From positions 1 through 42,824 of the forward strand of contig NZ_JRNB01000010.1 in the NCBI RefSeq assembly GCF_000758885.1: a DNA stretch of 42,824 nucleotides, written 5' to 3'. The position numbers and the translations under genes are program-made. The stretch is from Peptostreptococcus sp. MV1 (GTDB taxonomy: Bacteria > Bacillota > Clostridia > Peptostreptococcales > Peptostreptococcaceae). Positions 20,716-37,180 of this stretch are shown one piece after another (position 1 is the first letter of the stretch; each line of letters starts with the position of its first letter). Below the pieces are notes generated by a model that searched no databases, was not told the origin of the DNA, and worked only from the letters and a program-made list of their open reading frames with translations.

Positions 20716-21936
20716 CTAATAAATATATGGGTCTGGATCTACCTGCTTGTAGTTCTTTGTACCCTTGCTAACATTAGAAAAAGCTGCATTAAGCTTAATC
20801 CTAAATGTAGATATTTTTTCTAGAAAGTATGGATTATAGCATTTTTCTATGTCAGTACCCTTTCCGGTGATATTTACAGCAAGTTCTAATGCCATCCTTA
20901 GGGTATGATTTTTAGGGTCTGCGCTAGATGAGCCCATTCTATTGCCTGAATCGTTGATTCTAGACAAGAAAGTAGACACCTGAGAATTTAAGTATGCATA
21001 CTCATACCTTTGCCTGTGTATATATTTAATGCTATACTTGTCCAATATATCGGCAAGTTTATTAGGTTGGGATAGTTCAGCTACATAGAAATTATTCTCT
21101 GTAATTCTACTAATCAAAATATCATCTATAAGTTTACTAGTAGGGTAGTAGTTTACCTTGTCACCATATTTCTTGGTCATTTCATCTATAAGATTAGACA
21201 CATATGCAACTTTTTCATTGGCTTCTAATTTAGGTAGACTTACCTCTTCATATGCCATGCCGTATGATTTTGTTTCACTATCTAGACCATCCAAGTTTAA
21301 TTTTACAGATGCTGACAAGTTGTCATCGACTATAGCTATCGTCCTCTCTGCTCCCAAAGTTCTCGCCAATTCAGCTATTCTCTTAGTACGGTCTGGTTGA
21401 GCAGTCTTAAAGTTCATATCAAAAGTATCCATCAAGTCCCTTGTGCCAGCGGCCACATCCTTAGTCTTATTGTCAGTGGTATTTTTATCGATACTTGTAG
21501 CCTGATCAGCAGATACTAGAAGCATGTCTTTTCTGGATTTTTTAAGTTCCTTCAAAGCAGATATAATATTAGGATCTGAAGTAGATACTACTAGACCCTT
21601 AATTTCCCTATTTTCCTTTATCTTGTCTAGGACACGTTTTTTATCCTTTTCATAGTTTGTCATATCCTTATTAGGCAAATGATAGTCGACTATTTGAGCC
21701 TTGGTCAACTTGTTCTTTTTTTTGACACCATATTGTTCTTTTATAGCCATAGATGCATCATAAGCTTCAAAATCATCCTTCTTACTATCTGTAAGGATAG
21801 CTACACTTGCCTCATTGTCTGAATCAGAGTCCAAAATTTCCTTTTTCACCTTGTTGTCACCAGAACAGGCAGTCAAGGACACTAGAAGGCTTGCAAGACC
21901 GGTAAACAAACATATTTTTTTAAATATACTATTCAT
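20716..21936 (-). CDS. DUF3798-like lipoprotein, periplasmic-binding fold (copy 1)
   Basis: This 406-aa protein has a lipoprotein signal with lipobox LTAC near residue 24. It would be lipid-anchored outside the membrane. The mature part resembles the DUF3798 family of periplasmic-binding-like lipoproteins: it opens with a SVAILTDSKKDDFEAYDAS strand-helix unit, then IKGLVVSTSDPNIISALKEL and LARTLGAERTIAIVDDN. Its neighbour upstream (11 bp gap) is a diverged paralogue of similar layout. No permease or ATPase gene is adjacent, so a solute-binding role for an ABC importer is not supported locally. The family assignment is from memory of the motifs. Confidence 0.65.
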   Translation of the reverse strand: MNSIFKKICLFTGLASLLVSLTACSGDNKVKKEILDSDSDNEASVAILTDSKKDDFEAYDASMAIKEQYGVKKKNKLTKAQIVDYHLPNKDMTNYEKDKKRVLDKIKENREIKGLVVSTSDPNIISALKELKKSRKDMLLVSADQATSIDKNTTDNKTKDVAAGTRDLMDTFDMNFKTAQPDRTKRIAELARTLGAERTIAIVDDNLSASVKLNLDGLDSETKSYGMAYEEVSLPKLEANEKVAYVSNLIDEMTKKYGDKVNYYPTSKLIDDILISRITENNFYVAELSQPNKLADILDKYSIKYIHRQRYEYAYLNSQVSTFLSRINDSGNRMGSSSADPKNHTLRMALELAVNITGKGTDIEKCYNPYFLEKISTFRIKLNAAFSNVSKGTKNYKQVDPDPYIY

Positions 21937-21947
21937 AAGTGTCCTCC

Positions 21948-23051
21948 TTAATAAATTCTAGTTAAAAAAGTCAGTTTCCTGAAATATCCGTATGAAATCC
22001 CCATGCTATCAAAATTCAAACCTAGATTTAGATCTGTGTTGGCCCTGTTTAATATAGTTGAATTTGAATAACACTCCTCCAATGTAAAATTCTTTTCGTA
22101 CATATAATTAGCTACCTCTGCAACTAATTCTGTAACTACTGCCTTTCTCGATTCAGATATACCAGCCACCTTATTTTTTAGCCCTTTACTGGCAAGTTTT
22201 TTGGAAATTTCCTTATCGAAGTCTTCTCTATTTTTAAATTTCTCCATAGAATCACTAGCCAACTTCTTTGCCAACAATTCGCCATCATTTTCTGAATTTA
22301 TATTTGGCAATATAAACCTACTCTTGATAACATTATCTAAGCAAAACTCAGAATACTTTTCTTCAGACGGATAAATAGCAGTGGTAGACTTAGTTTGTTC
22401 ATCCATAGCATCTAACTTTTTTTGTAAGTCGCCATAATCTTCACCAACCTCTTCTACGGAAAACTTCATATTGTATTTTTCAGCAGCTAGCCTCGCCTTA
22501 TTTATATCCTCTATAAATCCTCTTGTAGATGCCTTTTCTTTTGAAATAATATAAATAAAGTTATCTGCCGACATCTCCTTGGCTGTGATAACAGACTCTC
22601 TACCAGAATACATATATTCCAAAAGACCAATATCTATATTCTTATCCTTAATTACCATATGCTTGTCCTCTGAAGATAATTCACCAATACCATCAGCTAT
22701 TGTAATTACACCTGGTAATTTATTTTTAACCCCTTTAAATACAGGCTCTAGTCCCTTTTTATTTGTGGATATCAGAAGAACCTTAACATTTTTATCAATA
22801 CTGTTGACTATCTTATCAATATGTTTCTTTTCAAAATCACCTTTAATATTAGGTAAATAGTTAATCGCCAACTTACCACTAGCAAGGTACTTGGGGTCAA
22901 TTTTAGCCCCCTTATCCATATATACAGTTATACCTGCCTTGTTACTAGTCATATCCAAATTGTCTTTTTTTGCATTTTCACCCTTTTTGCAAGCTGTCAA
23001 ACTGACCACCATCACAAGAGCCAAGCAAGGCATCATCAATTTTTTTAACAT
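21948..23051 (-). CDS. DUF3798-like lipoprotein (copy 2)
   Basis: This 367-aa protein has a lipobox LTAC near residue 21 followed by KKGENAKK. The mature part has the alternating strand-helix pattern of a two-lobed binding protein (VLLISTNKKGLEPVFKGV, then NFIYIISKEKASTRGFIED). It is a diverged tandem paralogue of the next gene: both share a C-terminal pattern of Leu-Ala-rich helix, E/C-Y-N or C-Y-S and a final aromatic segment. A start ATG follows GAGGTG. A -10 TATAAT (23085-23090, minus strand) and an inverted repeat lie upstream. Function unknown. Confidence 0.6.
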   Translation of the reverse strand: MLKKLMMPCLALVMVVSLTACKKGENAKKDNLDMTSNKAGITVYMDKGAKIDPKYLASGKLAINYLPNIKGDFEKKHIDKIVNSIDKNVKVLLISTNKKGLEPVFKGVKNKLPGVITIADGIGELSSEDKHMVIKDKNIDIGLLEYMYSGRESVITAKEMSADNFIYIISKEKASTRGFIEDINKARLAAEKYNMKFSVEEVGEDYGDLQKKLDAMDEQTKSTTAIYPSEEKYSEFCLDNVIKSRFILPNINSENDGELLAKKLASDSMEKFKNREDFDKEISKKLASKGLKNKVAGISESRKAVVTELVAEVANYMYEKNFTLEECYSNSTILNRANTDLNLGLNFDSMGISYGYFRKLTFLTRIY

Positions 23052-23125: not shown

Positions 23126-24148
23126 CTATTCTTCATAACCTCTAGGATTGTTTTTTTGCCATCTCCAAGAGTCCTGACACATCCTGTCTATATCGTATTC
23201 AGCAGACCATCCTAGTTCTCTCTCAGCCTTTGAAGAATCCGCATATGTCATGTCTATATCGCCATCTCTTCTTGGACCAATCTTGTATGGTATTTCCCTA
23301 CCACAAGCCTTAGAAAATGACTCGATCAACTCCATTACACTATAACCACGTCCTGTGCCCAGATTGTAATAATCTACGCCGACCTGGTCTTTAAATAATT
23401 TTTCTATAGCCTTTATATGACCCTTAGCCAGATCAACCACATGTATATAGTCTCTCACACCTGTACCATCCTTTGTCCTGTAGTCATTACCAAATACATT
23501 TATATGTGGCAATTCTCCTACGGCAACCTTGGTCAAATATGGCATAATATTAGCAGGTATTCCTGTGCAATCTTCTCCTATCATGCCTGACTCATGGGCT
23601 CCAATTGGGTTGAAGTATCTCAATACTATAGCGTTCAAGTCTCTATTAGCAAACCAAGCATCCTTTATTATCTTCTCACCCATCAACTTTGTAGTACCAT
23701 ATGGGTTTGTAGTAGATAATCTATGATCTTCCTTAGCTGGCAAATCCTCAATATCCAAGTCACCGTACACAGTAGCAGATGAACTAAATACAAAGTTATG
23801 TACACCGTACTTAGCCATAATAGACAACATATTAATTAATGAAAGTAAATTGTTGTCATAGTATTTAAGTGGATTGGCCACAGAATCACCGACTGCCTTG
23901 TATGCAGCAAAGTCTACAACAGCATCTATATCATTCTCTTTAAATATATTTTCCAAGTCAGCCGATCTAGTATCCATTTCATAAAACTTTACTGTCTTTG
24001 ATGATATTTTTTCTATCCTATCAATAACAGTATGATAACTATTAGATAGGTTGTCTACTATAACAACACCATAACCAGACTTCAATAGTTCAACTGCAGT
24101 ATGACTACCAATATAACCTGCTCCACCAGCCAATAAAATATTTTTCAT
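23126..24148 (-). CDS. galE: UDP-glucose 4-epimerase
   Basis: This 340-aa cytoplasmic short-chain dehydrogenase/reductase-type epimerase interconverts UDP-glucose and UDP-galactose (or their N-acetyl forms). The NAD-binding motif GGAGYIGSHTAVELLKSGY is at the N-terminus. The catalytic Ser/Thr region is SSSATVYGD near residue 123, and the YxxxK is YGTTK near residue 149. The C-terminal segments VRDYIHVVDLAKGH and NLGTGRGYSV are typical of GalE. It is the last member of the unusual SPOR/659-aa/58-aa gene run, 11 bp after the 58-aa gene. This position suggests a link to cell-surface polysaccharide rather than galactose catabolism, since no other Leloir gene is present. Confidence 0.95.
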   Translation of the reverse strand: MKNILLAGGAGYIGSHTAVELLKSGYGVVIVDNLSNSYHTVIDRIEKISSKTVKFYEMDTRSADLENIFKENDIDAVVDFAAYKAVGDSVANPLKYYDNNLLSLINMLSIMAKYGVHNFVFSSSATVYGDLDIEDLPAKEDHRLSTTNPYGTTKLMGEKIIKDAWFANRDLNAIVLRYFNPIGAHESGMIGEDCTGIPANIMPYLTKVAVGELPHINVFGNDYRTKDGTGVRDYIHVVDLAKGHIKAIEKLFKDQVGVDYYNLGTGRGYSVMELIESFSKACGREIPYKIGPRRDGDIDMTYADSSKAERELGWSAEYDIDRMCQDSWRWQKNNPRGYEE

Positions 24149-24159
24149 CTGCTTACCTC

Positions 24160-24336
24160 CTATACCAACTTGCTAGTAACATCCGGATCAACTATTTCTA
24201 TAATATTGTCCCTATCAATATTCGTACCTTCTACCAACAATTCATCTAAATCAATTTCCCTGTATTTAACACTTTTTTCCCTAGCCACAAAATTACACAA
24301 CCTGTACTCCTTGGCCATTATCTCATCTATTAACAT
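24160..24336 (-). CDS. Small hypothetical protein, 58 aa
   Basis: This short gene begins ATG after AGGAGG (4-base spacing) and ends TAG. It sits between the 659-aa gene (8 bp gap) and galE (11 bp gap). The 58-residue product starts MLIDEIMAKEYRLCN and is acidic toward its end (DNIIEIVDPDVTS). It has no signal peptide or membrane segment. Tight packing, a good ribosome site and an intact frame argue that it is real. I do not recognise it. It probably acts with its operon neighbours. Confidence 0.68.
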   Translation of the reverse strand: MLIDEIMAKEYRLCNFVAREKSVKYREIDLDELLVEGTNIDRDNIIEIVDPDVTSKLV

Positions 24337-24344
24337 AAGCCCTC

Positions 24345-26324
24345 CTACCTATAGCCACCAGTGAAGTAATAATCACTGTCTATCTTCATACTAGCAAACT
24401 TCATAAGAGAATATAAATCCTCAATTATATCCTTCCTTAAGATCCTCGATTCCTTATTCATGTTAAACTGTCTGAAGATATGAGTAGATTTTATCCTCTC
24501 CATCAGCTCAATTTTTAGCTCTGCCTCATCAAGCTGCCTGTAATTTGGATAAAAACTATAATATGTTTCAAATACTATTTTTACAGTCTTGGCTACATAG
24601 TGTGGCAACAAATTATAAATCAAGTGCCCAAGCTTCTTGTAGGCCATGTCTATATGTAGGTCAATCTGATATATCTGGGCTTCTTTTAGCATCCTAATAC
24701 TAGACCTTCTCATTTCCTCTGGTAATAGCATGTATGAAACCTTGTCTATGATGGCTATAATTCCATTTATATCCATCTTTATATCATTTCTCAAATCAAA
24801 GAAGTGCCTCTGAAGTCTTGAGATTTGACTAAGGTCACAAGTCCTATTCATAGACTTGAAGTACCTTTCTTCACTCCTCTCCAAAATATCAGACATATGG
24901 ACTGTTATTAAATCTATATTACTAAGTTGATCCTGAAGGTCACTATAAAGGTAGTTTAGAAAATCGACCTTAGTAGCCAAGTCAATATTGCTATTCATCA
25001 TATAAGAATACTTACTGTTCATATGATAGATATGGCCAAAGAAATTAAATATAACCATATCAGATACAGACTTTATCCAATTGTCATATACCTCATCAAG
25101 GTCTGTAGTCTCTAGCAAGGACTTTTGATATTCAGAAAATATATTTGCTGATAGGTCTGTAATTATCTCCCTCTTTAGGTTCATAACTACAAACTTGTCC
25201 TTGTACTTTATTTCTACGCCTACAAAGCCTTCATTTTCAAACTCATCTTCATTTACCGAAATATTTGATATAGTTCTTTTTTCTATATCCAGTATACACT
25301 TGTCTTCTGACTTCATTATAGATACGTACTCATCATCTATTTCTATAAAAAATGGTCTGAACTCCCTAGAAAAACCGATCGACTTATTTTCTATAGCCTT
25401 TAAGGAATCAAATCCAACCCTCTCAGCAGATTGACCATCGATATAAAGGTTAAATACATCCTGTCCGTCATAAACTATGTAATTACAATCCCCGATATAA
25501 TAACTAGTAAAAGATGATCTTTCCTTACATACTAACTCTTTCTTATCCTTTTTTTCATATAAGACATATAGGTCTTCATGCCTAATCAAAAACATATTTT
25601 TATTTAGGTACTCCTTAGCCCTCAGTCTACCAGATACCTTGCAAAATACTATTGGATCCTGAGGAGGTAATACACCTATCTTAGAATTATTTTTGACAAT
25701 TTCGTCTATATTCCTTGGAAGAGTAGTCTTTTGTATACTCCCCATAAAGCTTATATTTCTGTATACTTTAGATTGAAAATCAACATAAAAATATCCTCTA
25801 ATATTTATCATATTATCAATATTGTTGTAGGATTCAAGATCATGCAGGTTAAATTCAAACCTCTTACCCCTACTTACAAATACCAACCTGCTATCATCAT
25901 GCTCTAAAATACCAGTGTATAGGTCTCCGTCTGCATTCATAATTAGGTTCTTGCCCTCTATATCAAATATAAATTTTTTTGAGTTTTGTCCTATTTTGAC
26001 CAATTCAAACAAGTCCAAGACCATTATCAGGGATGGATATACCCTATAAGATTCTCCATCCTTGACCCTGACAAATGGTATAGAATCTGCAATAATATTT
26101 ACGCTATCACCATCTAATTCCGTATATAACTTTTGACCTTCCTTTGAAAAATCATAGAATATATAATCTTCTTTTTCCCCTTGTAAAGAATCAACCTTGG
26201 AAACATAAATGTTTCCAAGGTTAGTAAATTGCAGGTACTTATCTTCAAGGTTAAAGTCAATTAGTCCATTTAAGCTATATCCAGATTTTATTTTAAATAC
26301 TACTTTTTCACTATCTTTTAGCAA
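24345..26324 (-). CDS. Uncharacterised 659-aa cytoplasmic protein of the SPOR operon
   Basis: I do not recognise this protein. It has no signal peptide or membrane segment. Residues 1 to about 400 are rich in short alternating beta-strand patterns (for example FIFDIEGKNLIMNADGDLY), suggesting a large beta domain with repeated units. Residues about 410 to 659 are predicted helical with many charged heptad-like stretches (for example ERSEERYFKSMNRTCDLSQ). It starts with TTG after GGGGGT at about 9 bases and follows the SPOR-domain gene by 16 bp. Being co-transcribed with a septal peptidoglycan-binding-type membrane protein, it may be its cytoplasmic partner; this is inference from position. Confidence 0.72.
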   Translation of the reverse strand: MLKDSEKVVFKIKSGYSLNGLIDFNLEDKYLQFTNLGNIYVSKVDSLQGEKEDYIFYDFSKEGQKLYTELDGDSVNIIADSIPFVRVKDGESYRVYPSLIMVLDLFELVKIGQNSKKFIFDIEGKNLIMNADGDLYTGILEHDDSRLVFVSRGKRFEFNLHDLESYNNIDNMINIRGYFYVDFQSKVYRNISFMGSIQKTTLPRNIDEIVKNNSKIGVLPPQDPIVFCKVSGRLRAKEYLNKNMFLIRHEDLYVLYEKKDKKELVCKERSSFTSYYIGDCNYIVYDGQDVFNLYIDGQSAERVGFDSLKAIENKSIGFSREFRPFFIEIDDEYVSIMKSEDKCILDIEKRTISNISVNEDEFENEGFVGVEIKYKDKFVVMNLKREIITDLSANIFSEYQKSLLETTDLDEVYDNWIKSVSDMVIFNFFGHIYHMNSKYSYMMNSNIDLATKVDFLNYLYSDLQDQLSNIDLITVHMSDILERSEERYFKSMNRTCDLSQISRLQRHFFDLRNDIKMDINGIIAIIDKVSYMLLPEEMRRSSIRMLKEAQIYQIDLHIDMAYKKLGHLIYNLLPHYVAKTVKIVFETYYSFYPNYRQLDEAELKIELMERIKSTHIFRQFNMNKESRILRKDIIEDLYSLMKFASMKIDSDYYFTGGYR

Positions 26325-26340
26325 AATCTGTGACCCCCTC

Positions 26341-29103
26341 TTATTTTTCCTTTAATGCCTGTTCATATATTTCATCCAAGTTAGTTACATAAGATGTATT
26401 CTTGCCAGTTGAAGATATCTGATTTCTCAAGTCATTATAGTCTGTCTTCAACTGCTCCTTAGACAGGTTAGGTATTCTCGCCTGGTAGGCGCTAATTTTC
26501 AAGTCGAAGTACTTATTCTGGCTGGCTATGTAGTTTTGTATACCCTTTGCTCCTATTGACTTTGACTTGGCATATGCCTGGTTATAGTCAAAGTACTCAC
26601 CTACTCTTAGCATATAATAACCTGAATTTCTAACAAGCTGGGCTTGAACACCCCTCCTAGCAAAATTATTGGCAACTGACTCAGCGCCATCCTTATCCTT
26701 AGTGGCACCAACAAAAACAGTGTAATAAGTTCCCTTACCATTTTTATATTGTTCAGCCTGTCTATCTAATCCACTAGCCTTGGCTTCATTTTCATCCTTA
26801 GCTTTTTCAGCCTCAGTCTTCTGTGTTATTTCATCTGTTGACTTTGGTGCATCTTTAACTGTTGTAGATTTAGTATCAACTTTCTTTTCAACCTTTATAT
26901 TCTTTGTTGTATTATTAGTTTCCTCAACTGATGGCATAGTAAACTGCTTTATAAAGAAAATGTATGTACAGAATAAAAGTGCTAATATGACAATTATTAT
27001 AAGACCATCTCTAGCTACCTTGGTCTTTGACATACCAGCCATAAAGCCTTCATCATCAGCTACATCGACTTCTTGTGACATTTTTTTCTCTGCTCTAGCC
27101 TCTCTAAATGAGGCAAACTTGGCAGCCAACTTTGATTCCCTAAATTTTTCCACAAAACCTGGGCCATCATCTATATCCTCATCATCATATTCGTCGTACT
27201 CTTGATCATATTCATAATCCTCAGTAAGATCTTCTTCTTTTTCGACATGCAAAGAACTTCTATCCCCATCAACTGATTCTTCACTCATTGACTTCAACAT
27301 TTCTAGTTCTTCAAATTCATTTTCTTTGTCATCTTTTATTTCTACATCTGCCTTATCTTCAATATCCTTAGAAACATTAGCGACTTTCTCAACGGAGTCT
27401 GGCCTACTATCTAGAGGTTCAGATTTTGGTGCCCTTCCAGCTATGTATTCTTTCTTAGGATATACACAATCCTCTTCTTCAAATACAATATCTGACTTGC
27501 TAGCAAATGATTTAATACCTGTTTTTGATATTTTCTCTGCTATGTGCCTCTCATCCTTCAAGTCATCATATTCCTTTTTAATATCATTATCTTCCTTACG
27601 CTTGTTCTTCTCTCTCATCATAAGAATTGCTAAGGCATTTTCATCTTGTATAGACCTGTCTCCATTAAAGAGGTTGGGGTCTATATCATTATACTCGTCT
27701 TCATCCATGTCTGAGTACTTTTCAAACTCTTCTCCCCTATACTTTTTAGAAAAGAAATTTTTAAACCTATCAGATATACTATCTTTTTCATAGTAATCCT
27801 CTTCATCATTTATTTCGTCATAATTATACTCTTCAAATTCGTCATCATAGTATTCATCAGATGCCATTTCATCTTCTAGCTTATTTTTTTTCTTGAATAA
27901 ATTATCCTTCAAGGAAGATATAAGACCACCTTGCTTATCATCTTCATATGAATCAATACCGTCAAGTATATTTTCAACTCTTTCTCCAATTGGAGTGGCT
28001 CTATCAGTATCTAGCAGGTCCATTTTTTGTGAAAAATCAACCTTATCAAAACTAGTTTCTACTAAGTTTCTACCAAAGAAATTATTATTTTCTAGGTTAA
28101 AGTCTGATTTTACAAGCTTCTGACAGCCAATCCACCTAGACTTGTTTAAAAATGTCTTATTTCTCACTAGTCTCTCAATTATTTCTTTGAACTCAGATTC
28201 ATCAACTAGACCTATAACCACCATCCTAAAGGCATTAGTAAAGTACTGCTTGTTGTCATCGGATATATAATCCATCAAAAGGGCTACGCAGGAAACATAG
28301 TCTCTAGAAGTGTCAGAAAAGCCATAGGCATCATCTTCTTCAATATCTTCCGCCTCTACTGCATCTCTGAAAATATCATTTATCTTTACAGAAATTTCCG
28401 GTGTACTAATCATTGATACGTACTTGGTAAAACTGATACACTTATCTTCATCTGCCAGTTCATATTCATCTGATATATCATCATCTTCAACTAGGGCCTC
28501 ATCAGTAAACTCCTCTATAACTGTTTCCTGGCTAAAAAGTATGTCATTTATCATACTAAATATCTCATTCATAAGATCAATTTTGACCTCTTCAGTGCTC
28601 ATATCCAGTATATACTTGTATTTATCAACATTTCCAGATATTACAGTTATCACCATACCCAGTATATCTTTATAAATATTCAGTATTTTATAGTCATTTT
28701 CTATCTTTTCTATCTTTTTAACACCTGAATTCTTGTCATAGGACATGAAAATTTTTCTGTCCTTGTCGTTAAGGTGTTTATTGCCATTTTTCATGGCTTT
28801 ATTTACATACTGTCTGGAAGAAGCCTTGATATTTTCTATACTCTTTTCAACAGACTGGTGACCTTGTATCAAGTCATTTTGTATCCACATCTCTAGTATA
28901 TATTCCAACTTCTTGATTATAGACTTGTAGTATATTATATTATACCTCAAAAGTTCTATATATTTTTCTTCGTTTTCATCTACTTTTTCAAATTTATTTT
29001 TAAGCGTTTCATTCAAGTTACTGTTCATGGTATATTTATTATCAATATACTTTTCATCGACTTCAAGAACAGCCAACCTAATCAATTCTCGGCTATTATT
29101 CAA
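26341..29103 (-). CDS. Large single-pass membrane protein with C-terminal SPOR domain
   Basis: This protein is about 920 aa. Residues 1-330 are mostly helical. About 380-690 is a very acidic low-complexity linker with runs such as EYDQEYDEYDDEDIDD. One membrane segment lies near 700-717 (GLIIIVILALLFCTYIFF), followed by a Thr/Lys-rich stretch. A SPOR-like domain lies near 787-865 (TYYTVFVGATKDKDGAE, YYMLRVGEYFDYNQA). The topology is therefore a huge cytoplasmic N-part and an external SPOR domain. SPOR domains bind denuded glycan strands at division septa. The frame could start at GTG 29112, but that overlaps the AAGGAG site. TTG 29103 at 8 bases is preferred. It heads an operon with two unknown genes and galE. 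Confidence 0.78.
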   Translation of the reverse strand: MNNSRELIRLAVLEVDEKYIDNKYTMNSNLNETLKNKFEKVDENEEKYIELLRYNIIYYKSIIKKLEYILEMWIQNDLIQGHQSVEKSIENIKASSRQYVNKAMKNGNKHLNDKDRKIFMSYDKNSGVKKIEKIENDYKILNIYKDILGMVITVISGNVDKYKYILDMSTEEVKIDLMNEIFSMINDILFSQETVIEEFTDEALVEDDDISDEYELADEDKCISFTKYVSMISTPEISVKINDIFRDAVEAEDIEEDDAYGFSDTSRDYVSCVALLMDYISDDNKQYFTNAFRMVVIGLVDESEFKEIIERLVRNKTFLNKSRWIGCQKLVKSDFNLENNNFFGRNLVETSFDKVDFSQKMDLLDTDRATPIGERVENILDGIDSYEDDKQGGLISSLKDNLFKKKNKLEDEMASDEYYDDEFEEYNYDEINDEEDYYEKDSISDRFKNFFSKKYRGEEFEKYSDMDEDEYNDIDPNLFNGDRSIQDENALAILMMREKNKRKEDNDIKKEYDDLKDERHIAEKISKTGIKSFASKSDIVFEEEDCVYPKKEYIAGRAPKSEPLDSRPDSVEKVANVSKDIEDKADVEIKDDKENEFEELEMLKSMSEESVDGDRSSLHVEKEEDLTEDYEYDQEYDEYDDEDIDDGPGFVEKFRESKLAAKFASFREARAEKKMSQEVDVADDEGFMAGMSKTKVARDGLIIIVILALLFCTYIFFIKQFTMPSVEETNNTTKNIKVEKKVDTKSTTVKDAPKSTDEITQKTEAEKAKDENEAKASGLDRQAEQYKNGKGTYYTVFVGATKDKDGAESVANNFARRGVQAQLVRNSGYYMLRVGEYFDYNQAYAKSKSIGAKGIQNYIASQNKYFDLKISAYQARIPNLSKEQLKTDYNDLRNQISSTGKNTSYVTNLDEIYEQALKEK

Positions 29104-29155
29104 CGTATTCACTCCTTATTAGTTAATTGCTACTAAATTACAGTTTACTCATTCT

Positions 29156-36908: not shown

Positions 36909-36929
36909 GTTTACAAATAGAAAATCCTA

Positions 36930-37180
36930 TGAGGAGAAATAGTAGGTCAGGTAACTACTTATAGAGAGTCGGCGATGGTGGAATGTCGATATTAGTAACT
37001 GAGTGAATGGGTCTCTGAGGAGTGAATCGAAATCTTTCGAGAGTAGACTTCACCGTGGGCTGCACGATATAGCGGATAGGGAATCATGTGTTCCTGAATA
37101 GAGATATACGATTTTTTTCGTATAAATTAGGTGGCAACGCGGATTATACTTCGCCCTATATATAGGGCGGAGTTTTTTTA
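36930..37180 (+). promoter_or_regulatory. T-box leader, probably tRNA-Trp responsive
   Basis: The leader has stem I (from about 36,961), a stem III-like hairpin TATACGA...TCGTATA, the T-box sequence AGGTGGCAACGCGG (37129-37142) and an intrinsic terminator with a palindromic CGCCCTA-TATA-TAGGGCG stem followed by TTTTTTT (37152-37179). In the stem I internal loop the likely specifier is TGG (37056-37058), flanked as CCG-TGG-GC. This predicts uncharged tRNA-Trp as ligand. The TrpP-like gene that follows supports this. The exact fold was not computed. Confidence 0.88.

Follow-up and report, generated by a model that had tools for sequence, protein, structure and literature searches.

The window, as we call the whole 42,824-nucleotide stretch of Peptostreptococcus sp. 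DNA analysed here, carries mldA, mldB, mldC and galE on its minus strand, separated by gaps of 16, 8 and 11 bp (Table 1). These gaps reproduce the run of three tightly spaced genes into galE that an earlier sequence-only reading had described. The longest mldA frame starts with a GTG at 29112; as this codon overlaps the AAGGAG ribosome-binding site, the TTG at 29103 (920 aa), which that reading had also favoured, is the better start. Its description of the operon as uncharacterised was wrong, since the counterparts are mldABC, division genes already described in C. difficile.

Several other features surround the genes. An RNase P RNA (RF00010; 29247-29582) adjoins mldA on the opposite, plus strand; of nine relatives' loci scanned, seven have it upstream of mldA and in the same orientation, and it was not found in the other two fetched stretches. 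A gene for a glucosaminidase-domain protein (PF01832; 29747-30484) diverges from mldA. Downstream of galE, two adjacent DUF3798 proteins (20716-23051) share 23-40% identity between species, compared with 80-87% for asnA beyond them, indicating much faster divergence. A T-box leader (112.5 bits) occupies 36920-37161 on the plus strand.

Table 1. Coordinates of the mld genes, their parts and the dcw cluster
Feature	Position	Strand	Description or basis
mldA	26341..29103	-	920-aa single-pass membrane protein; open frame reaches 29112
MldA N-terminal cytoplasmic region	28114..29103	-	predicted two all-helical parts with a disordered linker between
MldA transmembrane segment, residues about 700-718	26950..27006	-	hydropathy
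MldA SPOR domain, then conserved stretch of about 60 residues	26539..26733	-	Pfam PF05036 and alignment
mldB	24345..26324	-	659-aa protein without hydrophobic span
MldB PH-like module, residues 314-399	25128..25385	-	structure comparison
MldB long alpha-helical region, residues 385-645	24390..25172	-	AlphaFold2 model
mldC	24160..24336	-	58-aa protein, short form
galE, downstream neighbour	23126..24148	-	UDP-glucose 4-epimerase; passes GalE model TIGR01179, 414.1 bits, cut-off 262.3
Stripped dcw cluster, window genome	L085 4939-12219, contig C57		lacks FtsL-like, class B PBP, SEDS, FtsQ, YlxW and YlxX genes

Correspondence with C. difficile MldABC and spread in the family

Judged by sequence and gene order, the window genes are almost certainly orthologues of C. 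difficile mldA, mldB and mldC, reportedly a cluster in that species; the locus is a known division gene set in a new genus, Peptostreptococcus. The available part of PMC9674922 equates CD2717 with mldA and gives for it a C. difficile phosphopeptide, SVVIPIK (S573). The MldA homologue in locus L076 of genome G061 contains SVVIPIK, with its serine at residue 573 counted from a GTG start. G061 RpoB is identical over printed residues 2-958 to chain 7l7b_C, from a structure that we take to be of the C. difficile protein. The RpoB of the Clostridioides genome G024 is slightly unlike 7l7b_C, and we therefore treat G024 as a close relative rather than demonstrated C. difficile.

The L076 run encodes MldA (847 aa), MldB (663 aa), MldC (106 aa), a 314-aa GalU-like protein (98% identity to GalU of L039) and GalE (337 aa). 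Window MldB aligned with its L076 counterpart over 661 columns (32% identity, E = 1.8e-128), and MldA in two blocks, one N-terminal (28% identity, E = 2.8e-39) and one spanning SPOR and the end (36% identity, E = 2.1e-27). Two marks of an MldABC locus were found: an MldA orthologue with a membrane span and a SPOR domain, and an MldB orthologue directly downstream of mldA.

MldB was present in 13 of 61 genomes (the window genome included) and MldA in the same 13. Twelve named loci came from the alignment search: seven from Peptostreptococcus, two from Peptacetobacter and single records from Metaclostridioides mangenotii, Asaccharospora irregularis and Terrisporobacter petrolearius. Among 71 family genomes, 27 had MldB (g1, which is Peptostreptococcus, 9/9; g17, 8/8; g10, 5/5; g23, 3/3; g5, 1/1; g14, 1/6) and the other 44 gave no MldB match. 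Gene order, which the sequence-only reading had wished to see compared across relatives, is kept, so loss of the order did not occur.

The slot after mldB holds a small frame of 42-70 aa in all nine Peptostreptococcus genomes, and differences among four mldC copies number 98, 41 and 175 at codon positions 1, 2 and 3 (six non-independent pairs); for these two reasons we regard the 58-aa frame as real. Profile comparison of short with long MldC was borderline (hhalign E 0.001, probability 21%). In genus g10, MldB and MldC are fused in 5/5 genomes (frames of 777-861 aa), and the two fusion tails checked, L053 and L079, matched Clostridioides MldC at 51% (E = 3e-26) and 40% (E = 4e-17) identity. 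Such natural fusions point to a physical MldB-MldC partnership. As a separate observation, in the Terrisporobacter locus (L052, 6255-10680) the protein encoded in the MldC slot is a 182-aa run of acidic repeats, whose EF-hand matches do not reach the cut-off.

Architecture of MldA and MldB

Hydropathy windows of 19 residues exceeding 1.6 start only at MldA residues 693-706 (best value elsewhere, 1.18), giving one strongly hydrophobic segment, as expected of the single-pass protein that had been claimed. The claimed acidic region is also present, with D+E fractions of 0.39 at residues 415-460 and 0.46 at 599-644; all-helical parts are predicted at residues 1-192 and 222-333 (numbering of the 923-aa frame). 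The large cytoplasmic region, thought unusual for a SPOR protein, is typical of MldA.

The SPOR domain, proposed for residues 787-865 and probably external to the membrane, was recovered by Pfam (PF05036) at 22.1 bits, above the cut-off of 21, and covers residues 794-858 in the numbering of the 923-aa frame; the match is nevertheless weak, because it lies near that cut-off and the six-frame match (21.4 bits) was placed somewhat upstream. Among five MldA orthologues scanned, three scored 31.1, 39.8 and 41.1 bits, one fell below cut-off at 17.1 and one had no SPOR domain. Terrisporobacter MldA (L052) carries YARHG at its C-terminal end in place of SPOR. Against the FtsN model TIGR02223 (NCBIfam), MldA scored 18.5 bits, far under the cut-off of 107.65.

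MldB has no hydrophobic span. Pfam and NCBIfam searches to E = 1 returned no family for the 659-aa MldB or the 58-aa MldC; the profile search suggested by the sequence-only reading thus assigned neither protein to a family with another role. The MldB profile had no sequence match in the PDB. In structure models, a predicted PH-like fold in MldB matched across a whole domain above background; pTM was low in both models (0.57 and 0.54), so that the arrangement of domains is tentative. The PH-like reading provides a fold hypothesis for MldB, and a literature search on this fold and on Mld proteins in Peptostreptococcus gave no paper among the matches listed.

An apparently reduced division machinery

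Much of the usual division machinery appears to have been lost from Peptostreptococcus, which has nevertheless kept the mldABC set. Of the 71 family genomes, 12 showed only one SEDS protein (nine Peptostreptococcus and three of g23); all 12 are Mld-positive and none has SpoIIE above its cut-off. The remaining 59 have two or more SEDS proteins. mldABC is kept alongside a single SEDS protein in Peptostreptococcus and Peptacetobacter-group genomes. The sole SEDS protein of the window genome is RodA (NCBIfam, 345.1 bits, cut-off 336.7), encoded beside PBP2 and MreB. Thirteen of 61 genomes had one PBP_dimer match; three of these belong to other families, and the rest are G030 and the nine Peptostreptococcus. 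In G000, G005 and G080 the dcw cluster reads rsmH, murF, mraY, murD, murG, ftsZ; it lacks the FtsL-like, class B PBP, SEDS, FtsQ, YlxW and YlxX genes, which G017 and G024 retain. G005 and G080 are single-contig assemblies, and the dcw gaps at those places in G000 and G005 are too short for the missing genes.

In the portion of PMC10693644 available to us, dcw SEDS-bPBP genes track sporulation and many Clostridia lack FtsW-FtsI; the string 'Peptostreptococc' is absent from its main text. We tentatively propose, as a possibility that we hold at somewhat less than even, that Peptostreptococcus and the Peptacetobacter group divide without FtsW, FtsI, FtsL, FtsQ and FtsA, that FtsZ, PBP1 and MldABC form a reduced divisome core, and that MldABC retention let the dcw SEDS-bPBP set (the sporulation set in C. 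difficile) go once sporulation was lost. If true, MldABC would take the functional place of FtsQLB-FtsN, and these bacteria would offer a natural system, ready to hand, for testing this. That 15 of the 27 Mld-positive genomes have two or more SEDS proteins, every one with SpoIIE above cut-off, speaks against Mld explaining SEDS loss. Two or three SEDS proteins are retained in four SpoIIE-negative, Mld-less genomes (from three genera only), in line with the idea that Mld allowed the loss; this count leaves out G079 (75% complete) and G010 (match below cut-off, from base 2 of its contig).

Proposed role and comparison with known systems

Our preferred reading, to which we give a probability of about 0.6, is that MldA, MldB and MldC form a septal complex that binds peptide-free glycan through SPOR, signals to FtsZ-side proteins and steers PBP1. 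MldA would sit in the septal membrane, in keeping with the division-site localization published for C. difficile MldA, MldB and MldC (PMC12548448, available part), its external SPOR domain probably holding it on peptide-free glycan strands produced by amidases at the closing septum. The large helical and acidic cytoplasmic part may bind MldB, a candidate cytoplasmic scaffold with PH-like modules and a helical arm, on which MldC would be a small acidic linker. FtsZ-side proteins would receive information on the condition of the septal wall from this complex, which may also steer the class A enzyme PBP1 and could stand in for FtsN and FtsQLB-type regulators, apparently missing here.

C. difficile mldA and mldB mutants have reportedly been obtained, so that the genes are not essential and PBP1 cannot depend on MldABC alone for its activation. 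The proposed mechanism is also weakened by the near-cut-off SPOR match in the window, the orthologue below cut-off and the YARHG replacement in Terrisporobacter, as well as by the 44 of 71 family genomes without an MldB match, the borderline similarity of short to long MldC and the low pTM of the models. In E. coli, the SPOR proteins DamX and DedD stimulate PBP1A and PBP1B (PMC7642682, available part). A division-site set made up of a SPOR membrane protein with cytoplasmic partners, as claimed earlier, agrees with what PMC12548448 and PMC10693644 say of C. difficile MldABC in the parts available (MldABC is mentioned also in PMC5727935); the coupling to galE claimed with it is weak.

That coupling would have the operon tie division to sugar-nucleotide supply for wall polysaccharide. 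In its favour, the stretches fetched for 18 distinct mld loci include galE in 16 cases; in 11 it directly follows mldC or the mldB-mldC fusion, and in three a galU-like gene intervenes (profile-tested in L039, to which the other two are 98% and 89% identical). However, no galE was found in the stretches fetched for the Peptacetobacter-group loci L051 and L078, and in Terrisporobacter L052 the gene sits on the upstream side of mldA. Its product is a housekeeping enzyme, and proximity alone is no sign of coupling; we consider this account very improbable. Scarcely more probable is a role as a Z-ring-to-membrane tether replacing FtsA. PH-like modules often bind membranes or peptides, FtsA was above its curated cut-off in 0 of 71 family genomes, and the five with near full-length FtsA-like matches among those listed (95-112 bits, cut-off 175.85; frames of 644-702 aa; G086, G032, G023, G011 and G026) are all Mld-negative. 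Mld nevertheless does not track FtsA loss: 39 of the 44 Mld-negative genomes also have no FtsA-like match at 95-112 bits among the matches listed (one, G022, has a near full-length match of 44 bits), and the window genome has a SepF-like ORF (L085 18802-19296, recognized by eye rather than by profile).

A stronger competitor, although still rather unlikely, is that MldABC serves mainly daughter-cell separation, with SPOR-held MldA positioning or restraining wall hydrolases and wall synthesis not its target. This would accord with the chaining of C. difficile linked to MldA and MldB (PMC12140426) and with SPOR domains binding glycans left by cell-separation amidases (PMC6895207), both as given in the available parts of those papers, and with the glucosaminidase gene beside mldA in the window. 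That neighbour, however, had a match close to mldA in five of the eight other Peptostreptococcus stretches and in none of the four from other genera, and the cytoplasmic scaffold appears larger than a hydrolase anchor would need.

The three genes can now be named. MldABC, described in the rod-shaped, spore-forming C. difficile, is thereby extended to Peptostreptococcus, whose members are cocci. C. difficile mld mutants are said to point to a role in rod shape; the presence of MldABC in cocci indicates that this is not its whole job. Beside a stripped dcw cluster, mldABC offers a small natural divisome for studying what controls a septum that a class A PBP builds. We regard the locus as an already known system now seen in another genus, where it provides a useful natural experiment; the septal-complex reading is a probable mechanism for it.

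Among known systems, tandem PH domain proteins (Rtt106 and FACT subunits) resemble MldB in the PH fold of residues 314-399 by structure comparison, but they are eukaryotic proteins of other function and their whole-chain TM-scores against MldB are low (about 0.1 by query length). E. coli FtsN, DedD and DamX are, like MldA, bitopic membrane proteins with a SPOR domain outside the cytoplasm, and may likewise act on peptidoglycan synthases; MldA differs in its approximately 700 cytoplasmic residues. C. difficile MldABC (with CD2717 as mldA, PMC9674922) has the same three genes in the same order and galE downstream; its MldA shares the N-terminal block and the end with that of the window, together with a single membrane span and SPOR. 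In contrast to the C. difficile set, Peptostreptococcus MldA is longer (920-1218 aa versus 847 aa in L076) with a longer acidic middle, MldC is shorter (42-70 aa versus 106 aa) and no galU separates mldC from galE.
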